DNA of 5,299 bases, from positions 1 to 5,299 of the forward strand of contig OMUE01000094.1 of the NCBI GenBank assembly GCA_900314165.1, in the 5' to 3' direction. Source of the DNA: an uncultured Acidaminococcus sp. (GTDB taxonomy: Bacteria > Bacillota_C > Negativicutes > Acidaminococcales > Acidaminococcaceae). The notes under the pieces were generated by a model that saw nothing but the letters and a program-made list of their open reading frames with translations, made no database searches and was not told where the DNA came from. Below, piece by piece: positions 2,805 through 5,227 of the stretch; position 1 is the stretch's first letter, and each line of letters begins with the position of its first letter. Both the position numbers and the translations under genes were made by a program.

Positions 2805-3052
2805 AATGTTAATAAATGAAAGGCAATGACCAAAACAAGTACTCTTAGGCTAGCGGCACAGAGAGCGCGAATCACCGGCTGAAAGTTCGCACCGAAGCTG
2901 AATAAGACGAATGCCTTTGGGAGCCGAAAGATTGAAACCTAGTAGGTCTTTCCGGGCAGCCTCCGTTACAGGTATGAGTGGCAGCTGATGACAGGCTGCA
3001 ATCAGAGTGGAACCGCGAGCACAATCGCCTCTGTATAGGGGGCGATTTTTTT
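2805..3052 (+). promoter_or_regulatory. T-box riboswitch, probably tRNA-Cys responsive
   Basis: A T-box leader that binds uncharged tRNA and lets transcription continue. Stem I: base GGC/GCC (2822-2824 with 2922-2924), a kink-turn-like AATGA opposite GA, lower helix CCAAA/TTTGG (2830-2834 with 2916-2920), AGTA (2838-2841) facing the specifier loop, TCTTA/TAAGA (2843-2847 with 2903-2907), then distal AGAGAG (2860-2865) and GCGAA/TTCGC (2867-2871 with 2886-2890) enclosing GGCTGAAAG. The specifier loop CGAATGCC (2908-2915) contains UGC, a Cys codon, at 2912-2914. Stem III: GCAGC/GCTGC (2981-2985 with 2995-2999). The T-box motif AGAGTGGAACCGCG lies at 3004-3017; its UGGA bulge (3008-3011) pairs with a discriminator U73, as in tRNA-Cys. 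CAGAG (3003-3007) can pair with CTCTG (3029-3033) as antiterminator, competing with the terminator. An overlapping GCC (Ala) register exists but does not fit U73 or the downstream cys genes. Confidence 0.93.
3022..3052 (+). terminator. Attenuator terminator of the T-box
   Basis: AATCGCC (3023-3029) pairs with GGCGATT (3041-3047), extended by weaker pairs toward the loop, followed by seven T (3046-3052). Its 5' arm includes bases needed by the antiterminator (CTCTG, 3029-3033), so the two structures exclude each other. Termination is expected when tRNA-Cys is charged. Confidence 0.92.
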
Positions 3053-3108: not shown

Positions 3109-3804
3109 ATGTTTAGTTCATTGCGCAATGATGTGCGGGTCATCAAACAAAGGGACCCGGCTGTAAAGAATACGCTGGAAGTTCTCCTTTGTTACTCCGG
3201 ACTTCATGCAATTTGGGCTTACCGGATTGCCCATTTCTTTTATGAAAAGAAATGGTTCGTAACGGCCCGCCTGATTTCTACGGCGGCCAGACTGCTGACC
3301 GGCATTGAGATCCATCCCGGGGCCCAGATTGGGGAAGGTTTATTTATCGACCATGGTTCCGGTATCGTCATTGGAGAAACGACCATTATCGGCAACAATG
3401 TATCCCTGTACCAGGGCGTGACTCTGGGCGGCACAGGGAAAGAAAAAGGGAAACGGCACCCCACCATCGGGGATTACGTAGTCGTAGCCTGCGGTGCCAA
3501 GGTATTGGGCTCCTTTACGGTAGGAGAAGGTGCCAAAATCGGTGCAGGCTCTGTAGTTTTAAAGGAAGTGCCTCCTTATGCCACCGTCGTAGGCATTCCC
3601 GGCCATGTGGTTGCTCAGGGCGGCCGCCGGGTTGCCCGTGCCCACAGTGAGCGGGACGTAGATCTGAACCACAACCGGCTGCCGGATCCTATTGAAGACC
3701 AGATTGAGGCTCTGGAAAAACAGGTAGCCCTGTTAAAGCTGCAGGTTCAGGAACTGAAACAGCAGGAAGAAGCTCCCCGCCTGAGGAAAGTCGTCAATTT
3801 ATAG
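3109..3804 (+). CDS. cysE: Serine O-acetyltransferase (EpsC/CysE family)
   Basis: A 231-residue enzyme that transfers acetyl from acetyl-CoA to L-serine, giving O-acetylserine for CysK. Short N-terminal helical part (about 1-65) with the family's RNDV...RDPA (6-18) and the Y29[14 protein letters not shown] (to 43) block. The left-handed beta-helix made of hexapeptide repeats spans about 66-170: [23 protein letters not shown] with catalytic D81-H82, then [21 protein letters not shown] with H117 and the acetyl-CoA site, and [21 protein letters not shown] to 165. A C-terminal charged heptad-like helix (about 194-222) ends the protein at ...VVNL. The start at 3109 is chosen because AAAGGGTGG lies 8 bases upstream and an upstream in-frame ATG (3007) sits inside the T-box. 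The leader of about 300 bases holds the T-box; a UUCG terminator follows the stop. It is the short EpsC type without the long E. coli-like N-terminal domain. Confidence 0.96.
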
Positions 3805-3824
3805 AAAGGCTTCGGCCTTTTTTT
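3805..3824 (+). terminator. Short UUCG-loop terminator after cysE
   Basis: AAAGGC (3805-3810), TTCG loop (3811-3814), GCCTTT (3815-3820) and a run of seven T (3818-3824). It starts directly after the cysE TAG. Six base pairs with a stable tetraloop suggest an efficient but perhaps incomplete terminator, so some read-through into cysK is possible. Confidence 0.8.
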
Positions 3825-3868
3825 CTGGATATAAATTCATAGTATTTCTCTAAAATTAGGAGGTTTTT

Positions 3869-3940
3869 ATGAGCTACGAGTCTTTCTCACAACCCGGTTT
3901 TCGATGTTGTTTCCTGACAGGCATTACCTATAAACATTAA
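3869..3940 (+). CDS. Candidate 23-residue Cys-Cys leader peptide upstream of cysK
   Basis: A short ORF with an ideal AGGAGG Shine-Dalgarno (3858-3863) five bases before its ATG. It encodes MSYESFSQPGFR, then C13-C14, then FLTGITYKH and a TAA stop. I know no family for it. Two adjacent Cys codons (TGT TGT, 3905-3910) in a 23-residue ORF, just upstream of the last gene of cysteine synthesis, are the mark of a ribosome-stalling leader peptide: slow decoding when Cys-tRNA is uncharged would alter downstream RNA folding. It ends 67 bases before cysK. The tandem Cys codons lie in the 5' arm of a predicted hairpin. There is no signal sequence or membrane segment. Alternatives are an unrelated small protein or a chance ORF; the strong RBS argues against chance. 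No clear promoter lies between the cysE terminator and this ORF, so it may be on a read-through transcript. Confidence 0.6.
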   Translation: MSYESFSQPGFRCCFLTGITYKH

Positions 3941-3979
3941 CATCAGTCCATATCCGTTTGCCAGAACATGATGATGGCA
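3903..3979 (+). promoter_or_regulatory. Possible attenuator-type fold between leader ORF and cysK
   Basis: GATGTT-GTTT (3903-3912) can pair with AAAC-att-AACATC (3932-3944), a 6+4 bp helix with a 3-base bulge; its 5' arm contains both Cys codons and its 3' arm contains the leader stop codon. A downstream hairpin TGCCA/TGGCA (3959-3963 with 3975-3979) has TGATG in its loop and arm region. If the first helix is opened by a stalled ribosome, CATCA (3941-3945) could pair with TGATG (3969-3973 or 3972-3976) and disturb the second hairpin. No U-run follows, so control would be translational or through RNA stability. Folding was done by eye. Confidence 0.35.
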
Positions 3980-3984
3980 GTCCC

Positions 3985-4006
3985 ATACATAAAAAGGAGA
4001 ATGTAT
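3985..4006 (+). promoter_or_regulatory. cysK ribosome binding site in a hairpin loop
   Basis: ATACAT (3985-3990) and ATGTAT (4001-4006) are exact complements flanking AAAAAGGAGA (3991-4000). The whole cysK Shine-Dalgarno would be displayed in a 10-base loop one base before the ATG at 4008. The AT-rich helix is weak, so it may only help expose the RBS or may be coincidence. Confidence 0.4.
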
Positions 4007-4007
4007 T

Positions 4008-4946
4008 ATGTCTAAAATCTATAAAAGCGTATTGGAATTAATCGGTCATACCCCTCTGCTGGAACCGGTCCGTTTCACGGCAGGCAAGGACCTGAAGGCT
4101 CGTCTGCTGGTGAAGCTGGAAAGTTTCAACCCTGCGGGGTCTATTAAAGACAGAACCGCTCTGGCTATGATTGAAGATGCCGAAAAACGAGGTGTGCTAA
4201 AAGAAGGCGGCACCATCATTGAGCCCACCAGCGGCAATACGGGCATCGGCCTGGCTGCTGTGGCTGCCGTAAAAGGCTACCGGGCTATCATGGTCATGCC
4301 GGAAACCATGTCCGTAGAACGGCGGAACATGATTGGGGCCTATGGTGCAGAAGTTGTCCTGACAGAAGGGAAAAAGGGCATGGCCGGTTCCATTGAAAAG
4401 GCCAATGAATTAAAAGCCTCCATTCCCGGCAGTTTCATTCCCGGCCAATTCGACAATCCGGCTAACCCGGCCATCCACAGAGCCACCACAGGCCCGGAAA
4501 TCTATGAAGATACGGACGGACATGTTGATATTTTCGTCGCTACGTTTGGTACCGGTGGTACTTTAAGTGGTGCTGCCCAATATCTGAAATCCCAAAAGCC
4601 CTCGGTAAAAGTGGTTGCTGTAGAACCGGCAGACTCTCCTCTTCTGAGCCAAGGGAAAGCCGGTCCCCACAAGCTTCAGGGAATTGGGGCGAACTTTATT
4701 CCTGCCACCCTGGATCAAAAAATTTATGATGAAATCCTGACCGCCACCACGGACCAGGCTTACGATACAGCCCGGGACTTCATTACGAAAGAAGGCTTCC
4801 TGGTAGGGATTTCCGGCGGTGCTGCCCTGTATGCAGCCCTGGTAGAAGCCCAAAAACCGGAAAACACCGGGAAAACGGTGGTCACCATCCTGCCGGATAA
4901 CGGCGACCGTTACCTGACTACGCCGGGATTCATAAAAGCAGAATAG
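4008..4946 (+). CDS. cysK: Cysteine synthase (O-acetylserine sulfhydrylase)
   Basis: A 312-residue PLP enzyme of fold type II that makes L-cysteine from O-acetylserine and sulfide in the cytoplasm. Visible motifs in order: NPAGSIKDR (41-49) with the PLP Schiff-base K47, the substrate loop PTSGNTG (73-79), QFDNPANPAIHRATTGPEI in the middle, the phosphate-binding GTGGT (181-185) within FGTGGTLSG, and GISGGAA (267-273) with S269 as expected partner of the PLP ring nitrogen. PDNGDRYLTTPGF near the C-terminus matches the usual PDTGERYLSTPLF. The family usually has GISSGAA, so the second Ser is Gly here. The protein has no Cys residue. The ATG at 4008 has AAAGGAG about eight bases upstream. It lies 203 bases after cysE, beyond a terminator and a Cys-Cys leader ORF, so it is probably controlled separately from, or in addition to, the T-box. 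Cystathionine beta-synthase is less likely given length and motifs. Confidence 0.96.
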   Translation: MSKIYKSVLELIGHTPLLEPVRFTAGKDLKARLLVKLESFNPAGSIKDRTALAMIEDAEKRGVLKEGGTIIEPTSGNTGIGLAAVAAVKGYRAIMVMPETMSVERRNMIGAYGAEVVLTEGKKGMAGSIEKANELKASIPGSFIPGQFDNPANPAIHRATTGPEIYEDTDGHVDIFVATFGTGGTLSGAAQYLKSQKPSVKVVAVEPADSPLLSQGKAGPHKLQGIGANFIPATLDQKIYDEILTATTDQAYDTARDFITKEGFLVGISGGAALYAALVEAQKPENTGKTVVTILPDNGDRYLTTPGFIKAE

Positions 4947-4983: not shown

Positions 4984-5070
4984 CCGTAGGGGCGCATCGT
5001 GAGATGCGCCCACCAAGGATTCTTTGAATAAGTATCCTTGATGGGCTTATCTTACGATAAGCCCCTACGG
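4984..5070. repeat. 87-base cloverleaf inverted-repeat element (REPIN-like)
   Basis: The ends are inverted repeats, CCGTAGGGG (4984-4992) and CCCCTACGG (5062-5070). Inside, GGGCGCATC/GATGCGCCC (4990-4998 with 5003-5011) forms a 9-bp hairpin with a GTGA loop, CAAGGAT/ATCCTTG (5014-5020 with 5034-5040) a central hairpin, and GGGCTTATC/GATAAGCCC (5043-5051 with 5056-5064) a second 9-bp hairpin. With the outer six pairs (4984-4989 with 5065-5070) this folds as a four-way junction. The outer hairpins are inverted copies of one another that differ at two paired positions in each arm, all compensated. This resembles two REP-type palindromes in opposite orientation (a REPIN). TAGGGGC/GCCCCTA palindromes are common dispersed repeats in bacteria; copy number in this genome cannot be seen. 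Confidence 0.85.
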
Positions 5071-5146
5071 AATATGCGTTAAAGATTTTTGTCCGTTTTA
5101 TACCAAAACAGAAAGTTTTTTGTGGTTTGTCCTGCCTGAGTCAAAG

Positions 5147-5187
5147 AAAAGGAGCTGTGAAAAAATGAATTTTTCACAGCTCCTTTT
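5147..5187. terminator. Strong 18-bp bidirectional terminator downstream of cysK
   Basis: AAAAGGAGCTGTGAAAAA (5147-5164) and its exact complement (5170-5187) enclose a five-base loop, with T-runs on the exit side of both strands. It is the first intrinsic terminator after cysK (about 200 bases after its stop) and may also stop a convergent transcript from beyond the window. Its core GAGCTGTGA equals that of the 1846-1867 terminator. Confidence 0.92.
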
Positions 5188-5227
5188 TATTGTCAGCATG
5201 GCTGACTTCCTTGCCCGCCGCAGGCGC

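Follow-up and report, generated by a model that had tools for sequence, protein, structure and literature searches.

A conserved CGA-TGT dicodon in a putative cysteine-responsive leader upstream of cysK in relatives of Acidaminococcus and Megasphaera

Introduction

In attenuators of the trp and his type, the ribosome waits at codons for the end product of the pathway. The leader of the cysteine synthase gene cysK described here resembles them in being a short open reading frame (ORF), led by a Shine–Dalgarno (SD) sequence, ahead of a biosynthetic gene for the putatively sensed amino acid. It differs in having neither terminator nor antiterminator and a single conserved Cys codon (two in the window, the whole 5,299-nucleotide stretch of uncultured Acidaminococcus sp. 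DNA that we analyzed). In translational attenuators of the erm and cat type, the inducer is an antibiotic, and stalling on the leader opens the sequestered SD of the next gene. An opening of the SD is proposed for cysK as well, where the inducer would be missing charged tRNA; unlike in the erm and cat systems, sequestration is not seen in the window alone. The Cys T-box (RF00230) is an RNA-only sensor of tRNA, whereas the sensor proposed here would be ribosome-based.

Several described upstream ORFs come closer in subject. Mycobacterial polycysteine leaderless sORFs (Canestrari 2020) are cited as cysteine-responsive attenuators in the accessible parts of PMC13236596 and PMC9094748, the former citing them as translation attenuation. 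Like the cysK leader, they are, as cited there, short ORFs that contain Cys codons and precede cysteine genes. By their title they are polycysteine and leaderless, whereas the cysK leaders have one conserved Cys after a fixed CGA and are mostly SD-led; combination with a T-box, a feature of one clade of cysK leaders, is a further difference. According to the available text of PMC8632094, uORFC-8-2, located before cysS in Rhodobacterales, is likewise an upstream ORF with conserved Cys codons ahead of a cysteine-related gene, whereas its tandem Cys codons, its two stems and its U run, taken as a terminator, are not shared by the cysK leaders. The Bordetella copper ORF CruR is similar in that its translation controls the next gene of the operon; the text available for it (PMC9426467) describes a DUF2946 protein whose CXXC senses copper, with RAPP as the site of arrest and Rho as the output. 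In contrast, the SD-led cysK leaders are 9–25 amino acids long, and Rho was not found in the genomes of 14 relatives.

Within the open-licence PMC literature (titles and starts of abstracts), we found neither a CGA-UGU sensor nor any leader peptide described for cysK of these bacteria. As far as that literature goes, leader peptides that respond to cysteine are known, whereas the layering of a dicodon sensor on a T-box has no precedent.

Results

The cysteine locus of the window

The CysK tree identified the window as Acidaminococcus-like, the nearest CysK among the loci compared being that of locus L091 in the Acidaminococcus clade (83% identical). Unless stated otherwise, the features below lie on the forward strand. 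The first gene of the locus, cysE (serine O-acetyltransferase, positions 3109–3804; TIGR01172, 249.5 bits, cut-off 210.65), is under a Cys-type T-box, as the original prediction had claimed: the leader spans positions 2817–3035 (Rfam RF00230, 104.5 bits, gathering score 93), its specifier, UGC after GAA, was read by eye from the alignment, and its terminator hairpin, followed by T, lies at 3023–3047. Directly 3' of cysE stands a terminator-like hairpin, AAGGC-UUCG-GCCUU with a T run (3806–3824; −8.8 kcal/mol for 3800–3832), which the consensus terminator scan did not call. The promoter scan called no site between this hairpin and the leader ORF, and one weak site within the ORF (3914–3943), with the count of sites at chance level.

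The leader ORF occupies positions 3869–3940, starts with ATG and encodes in 23 codons the peptide MSYESFSQPGFRCCFLTGITYKH, which matched no NCBIfam model. Its SD, AGGAGG, was found in the sequence and scored at 3858–3863, and its stop codon is followed after 67 bases by the ATG of cysK at 4008. The ORF, its SD, this spacing and the adjacent TGT codons at 3905–3910 are all as originally described. The cysK gene itself (cysteine synthase A, 4008–4946; TIGR01139, 426.4 bits, cut-off 350.95) is preceded by the SD AAGGAG at 3994–3999. No T-box covariance match was found in positions 3841–4007 up to E = 1, and the T-box of cysE is the sole one in the window.

Three further elements were observed around the locus. 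A PerR-type regulator adjoins it on the reverse strand (1165–1596; NF052545, 190.9 bits, cut-off 180). On the 3' side of cysK, positions 4985–5073 read by eye as a long, imperfect palindrome, CCGTAGGGGC...GCCCCTACGG, that encloses inverted repeats and resembles an interspersed repeat element. A near-perfect terminator-like hairpin, AAAGGAGCTGTGAAAAA/TTTTTCACAGCTCCTTT, was also noticed by eye at 5142–5192, with a shorter similar one at about 1843–1868.

An Arg-Cys dicodon is invariant among 24 leaders

The leader belongs to a family of 24 cysK loci, namely the window plus 23 loci distributed over 22 genomes from the orders of Acidaminococcus and Megasphaera. Upstream of cysK, CGA-TGT (Arg-Cys) stands in frame with no stop codon before it in 24/24 loci; in the window, this core lies at 3902–3907, 33 nt after the start codon. 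All 24 leaders spell this Arg as CGA, a codon that accounts for 16 of 208 Arg codons in the accompanying cysK genes and for 2 of 53 in five genes of the window. The Cys codon is TGT in every leader, and these conservation figures carry some ascertainment, because some members were first picked out by the motif (CGATGTTG). Others were picked out by an SD and a short Cys ORF alone, and the six loci found in this way (L121, L125, L132, L133, L137 and L138) all obey the CGA-TGT rule. An own start codon is present in 23 of the 24 loci, the exception being L109, and an SD was scored ahead of the start in 23 of 24. In each of the 16 leader loci belonging to the window's clade, CGA lies 33 or 36 nt from the start; for the seven other-clade loci with their own start, the figure is 15–24 nt.

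The second Cys codon of the window (TGT, 3908–3910) is not conserved family-wide. The codon after CGA-TGT is TGA in 8 of the 24 loci, TGT in 6, TGC in 3, AGC or AGT in 3, TAT or TAC in 2 and CGA or CGT in 2, so that a second Cys adjoins the core in 9/24 loci, its place being taken otherwise by a stop, Ser, Tyr or Arg. The original prediction of a Cys-sensing leader had expected start, ribosome binding site and adjacent Cys codons to be kept while the remaining codons drift. Across the 24 loci, reading frame and first Cys codon behaved as expected; the tandem as a conserved unit was rejected, the second Cys being absent in 15 loci and CGA-TGT being what is conserved instead.

Among six Acidaminococcus-type sequences, CGATGTTG was the longest invariant block of the ORF, and the other invariant block was the SD of cysK. 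Outside close species, the leader peptides have little in common beyond Arg-Cys. Examples, each ending at a stop codon, are MSLSVSARPQGFRC (L001), MQQNWWNKPLGPRC (L002), MHKGKRCCN (L096, where five codons precede the Arg-Cys pair), MSTRDRRCCR (L099), MTLLTVNKRC (L118), MKIKNIMVFKDTRCRSCRLNG (L121), MYQDIFSYQVLFRCSRPVYF (L125), MLPIFTYLWVFRCSRYSL (L132), MEQLFEKFILCKRCCRLIGRE (L006), MIYYIARSSYFRCY (L137) and MNCTKTRIYPNRCYHFTPQKQ (L138). In L109, the one locus whose upstream gene was tested for it, that gene (1007–1456) is an Rrf2-family regulator (PF02082) ending in KCRCCK, and CGA-TGT-TGT stands in the gene's own frame at its end, so that the leader core seems to have merged with the tail of this regulator gene. 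Because the frame is kept in every locus, including this one, the conservation argues that the codons are read.

The hexamer CGATGT also occurs within 200 nt upstream of cysK in 9 of 177 other regions (two duplicate rows included), which is about the chance rate. A search of 18 genomes for an SD, a start codon and CGATGTTG gave 127 matches, among which 21 rows were in frame without a stop; 13 of these rows (12 places) were cysK leaders and 8 lay elsewhere.

Distribution of the leader

Within the two orders, the leader was found in 23 of the 78 cysK loci sampled (22 of L091–L150 and one of L157–L174), a sample in which L107 and L168 have almost no upstream sequence. Elsewhere in the class, 48 loci (L151–L156 and L175–L216) yielded no short CGA-TGT ORF, and CGATGTTG was absent from the named-contig loci outside the two orders. 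The hexamer alone, with no short ORF, occurs outside the two orders in L202 and L216. We also observed that L153 and L187, from other class members, carry SD-preceded short ORFs before cysK in which Arg-Cys is written AGA-TGC; these may be distant relatives of the leader or coincidental.

In a CysK tree of 65 rows, the window's clade of 24 comprises 16 leader loci and 8 leaderless ones, and seven leader loci are scattered in several places outside it. Presence of the leader requires 10 changes on this tree, at least 5 of them forced by well supported branches; the leader family spans deep splits of the CysK tree. As a separate observation, made by eye, the cysE gene of L004, L128, L129 and L131 seems to end in ...ERCPNQMRPLK, with CGA TGT in frame and a leaderless cysK downstream; in L126 and L127, the Arg-Cys at the end of cysE is written CGC TGC. 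Such an ending may be a relic, a leader that has moved, or coincidence.

Decoding of the conserved codons

In the relative G006, the Arg anticodons are TCT, CCT, CCG and ACG, and no TCG was seen (56 tRNAs read from 60 Rfam matches). A tRNA-Arg(ACG) was also found in 11 further genomes of the two orders (ARAGORN) and in G067. The TCG anticodon pattern gave 11 matches across 22 genomes, none of them tRNA-like as judged from the matched strings. TadA scored over its cut-off in 13 of 14 genomes and fell 2.5 bits short in the remaining one. With ACG present, TCG not found and TadA present, these gene inventories suggest that CGA is probably read by inosine-34 alone, and UGU probably by tRNA-Cys(GCA). 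According to the accessible text of PMC4046918, CGA is poorly read in the Salmonella his leader, and the same text cites work in which the tRNAs for Cys and Arg decoded NNC more quickly than NNU. On these decoding facts, the invariant pair consists of two weak codons.

Terminators and Rho

An intrinsic terminator between the dicodon and cysK was found in 0/24 loci, whereas the same scan finds one in three of four related multi-Cys leaders. Rho (TIGR00767) scored over the 509-bit cut-off in 0 of 14 relatives' genomes, the best partial score per genome being 27–40 bits; reading frames of about 470–510 amino acids suggest that these partial matches are ATP synthase subunits. Control of cysK by transcription termination is therefore unlikely. 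A rut-like excess of C over G in the spacer was considered and rejected as inconsistent, since G exceeds C in L001, L091, L099, L100, L121, L130, L166 and others. As a side observation, Rho may be missing from the Acidaminococcus and Megasphaera orders.

The multi-Cys leaders with a terminator before cysK are those of L161 and L167, which are second cysK copies, and of L115. They have five to seven Cys codons, the first of which are followed by a stretch able to base-pair with the region of the terminator (−16 to −18 kcal/mol). The Cys-rich leader peptides are MMKNTCCQNCRLCCMMRFTPGQESKSF (L161), MQKTTCQQNCSLCCMRCSTPG (L167) and MYRTSDKMSNMCCCRMLN... (L115), together with ...GRMCCC (L110), which ends in CCC and has no terminator. 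L161, L167 and L115 resemble cysteine attenuators of the classical kind within the same order, which makes the CGA-TGT leader a distinct solution.

The leader and the T-box

Upstream of the leader, a T-box over the gathering score was found in 16/16 leader loci of the window's clade, and in 15 of them, among which is the window, the elements run T-box, cysE, leader, cysK, a gene order that fits the two-layer response originally proposed. The Cys T-box responds to the signal proposed for the leader, tRNA-Cys charging, and it also occurs in other arrangements around cysK. In L123, it is followed by the leader and cysK without cysE, which places two putative sensors before one gene. In L124 (95.8 bits) and L003 (88.2 bits, E 7.8e-20, just below the gathering score of 93), it immediately precedes cysK, and both cysE and leader are missing. 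Six of the eight leaderless cysK rows in the window's clade also have no T-box right before cysK. In the second clade, no T-box was found ahead of the leader in L096, L099, L100, L102, L109 and L118, and none in L166; in L098, one lies on the opposite strand at a distance of about 1.1 kb. Overall, leader and T-box can replace or add to each other at cysK, as would fit a shared cysteine signal.

RNA folding around the cysK SD

Pooled over 23 leader loci (L109, with no start codon of its own, was left out), the SD of cysK was less accessible than in dinucleotide shuffles, with a mean unpaired value of 0.372 vs 0.487 (sd 0.034; 0 of 60 shuffled sets as low). When the stretch that a stalled ribosome and one queued behind it would cover was masked, the value rose by 0.121 vs 0.046 in shuffles (sd 0.032; 0 of 60 as high); pooled p values from such sets are optimistic, because the loci are related. 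Neither effect was seen in 23 leaderless cysK controls (L152, which has no SD, was left out), where the corresponding values were 0.493 vs 0.485 and a gain of 0.018 vs 0.045.

Individual loci varied. In the window RNA, SD accessibility went from 0.57 to 0.54 on masking of the leader and from 0.60 to 0.54 with a smaller mask, which is no gain, and in L099 and L006 the masking effect was opposite, by 0.24 and 0.29. Strong single-locus cases of sequestration are L095, where a 12-bp partner of the cysK SD lies right after the leader stop, L123, L093 and L133. A scan for anti-SD duplexes was not significant (combined p 0.23). A single shared RNA structure was also considered and rejected: judged by eye, a hairpin enclosing CGATGT seemed persuasive for Acidaminococcus and Megasphaera, but it is not found family-wide. 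It is enriched overall (combined p 3.5e-4, from 24 related loci), with p above 0.4 in 11/24 loci and 0.88 in the window.

Discussion

These comparisons make it reasonably probable that the leader is a translated one-codon cysteine-starvation sensor that acts on cysK translation and is layered on the T-box. We infer stalling, a cysteine response, and the direction and mechanism of the effect on cysK, as follows. The working part of the leader peptide would be the dicodon CGA-UGU. When Cys-tRNA(Cys) is scarce, the ribosome would wait with Arg(CGA) in the P site and the single UGU in the A site, a step that may be unusually slow since CGA would be read via inosine-adenine wobble and UGU via G-U wobble. 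The waiting ribosome, together with one queued at the leader start, would keep the leader RNA off the cysK SD, and cysK would be translated. With enough cysteine, the ribosome would pass and leave, the RNA would refold and cysK translation would drop. Such control would add to that of the T-box before cysE, which acts at the level of transcription.

Several observations speak against this reading: masking the leader brings no gain in SD accessibility in the window RNA, L099 and L006 show the opposite effect, the anti-SD duplex scan was not significant, the family shares no single secondary structure, 8 of the 24 cysK rows in the window's clade lack the leader, and a lone Cys codon is little for an amino-acid sensor of the classical type. 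We infer that CGA could make the following UGU hypersensitive, and a more specific proposal, which we offer tentatively and regard as possible rather than probable, is a one-codon sensor whose sole conserved part is the dicodon. In it, weak inosine-adenine pairing in the P site would make UGU hypersensitive to the supply of Cys-tRNA, so that neither a run of Cys codons nor a conserved RNA structure would be needed. The sensor would act on cysK translation without Rho, on top of the cysE T-box (or behind a cysK T-box, as in L123), and the locus would possess two independent read-outs of tRNA-Cys charging.

We prefer translational attenuation because the pooled folding favors a cysK SD that is sequestered and would be opened by a stalled ribosome. 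Its main rival is protection of the mRNA, in which a ribosome stalled at CGA-UGU would shield the cysK transcript from decay, controlling its stability with no need for a conserved RNA structure. Drifting spacers, the lack of a terminator, of a convincing Rho match and of a shared structure all fit such protection; nevertheless, it does not predict the pooled SD sequestration specific to leader-bearing loci, and we consider it unlikely, if still worth attention. Arrest by the nascent peptide, with the Arg-Cys end sensing a small molecule (free cysteine, sulfide or a metal) in the exit tunnel instead of UGU sensing tRNA charging, appears improbable. A stop codon directly follows the pair in 8 of the 24 loci, and arrest peptides with a conserved Arg-containing end exist (RAPP, in the available text of PMC12992588), but the upstream residues drift, L096 has just five codons before the pair, and arrest would not require the particular codons CGA and TGT, both of which are fixed.

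Classical transcription attenuation, through an intrinsic terminator or Rho between leader and cysK, is the mode proposed for uORFC-8-2 before cysS (available text of PMC8632094) and shown with Rho for CruR (available text of PMC9426467), and a terminator with its antiterminator partner is present in the related multi-Cys leaders of L161, L167 and L115, three of the four. We nonetheless judge it highly unlikely for the CGA-TGT family, given that a terminator-like hairpin precedes cysK in none of the 24 loci and that Rho exceeded its cut-off in none of the 14 genomes. Slightly less likely still is that CGAUGU is a recognition site in RNA or DNA, for a protein or as a hairpin loop, within an incidental ORF. 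The hexamer is indeed fixed at the nucleotide level, and part of the family has the enclosing stem, with its combined p of 3.5e-4 over 24 related loci; however, the hexamer is in frame in all 24 loci, even at the end of an upstream gene, and the enclosing stem was not found in the window.

If the preferred reading, translational attenuation at CGA-UGU, is true, a ribosome would sense one amino acid via a single regulatory codon placed after a poor wobble codon, and the effect of P-site wobble on A-site decoding could be tested in a natural regulator. The locus would then also offer a naturally occurring example of one tRNA being monitored by two sensors of different kinds. Since most of the ORFs have 9–25 codons, such a cysteine regulator would easily be missed by annotation.

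Methods

Relatives of CysK were taken from 80 loci on named contigs and from genome searches of two orders and of the class. In the order of A. fermentans, 41 of 63 genomes had a CysK match, and in that of Megasphaera micronuciformis, 33 of 61. The class search covered 380 genomes, 219 of them with a CysK match, and part of these matches was taken (60 further stretches). L092, L094 and L135, which are copies of L001, L002 and L006, were left out before the 24 family members were counted. The criterion of an SD and a short Cys ORF also yielded ORFs before cysK that contain no Arg-Cys, for example in L105, L110, L115, L139 and L141.
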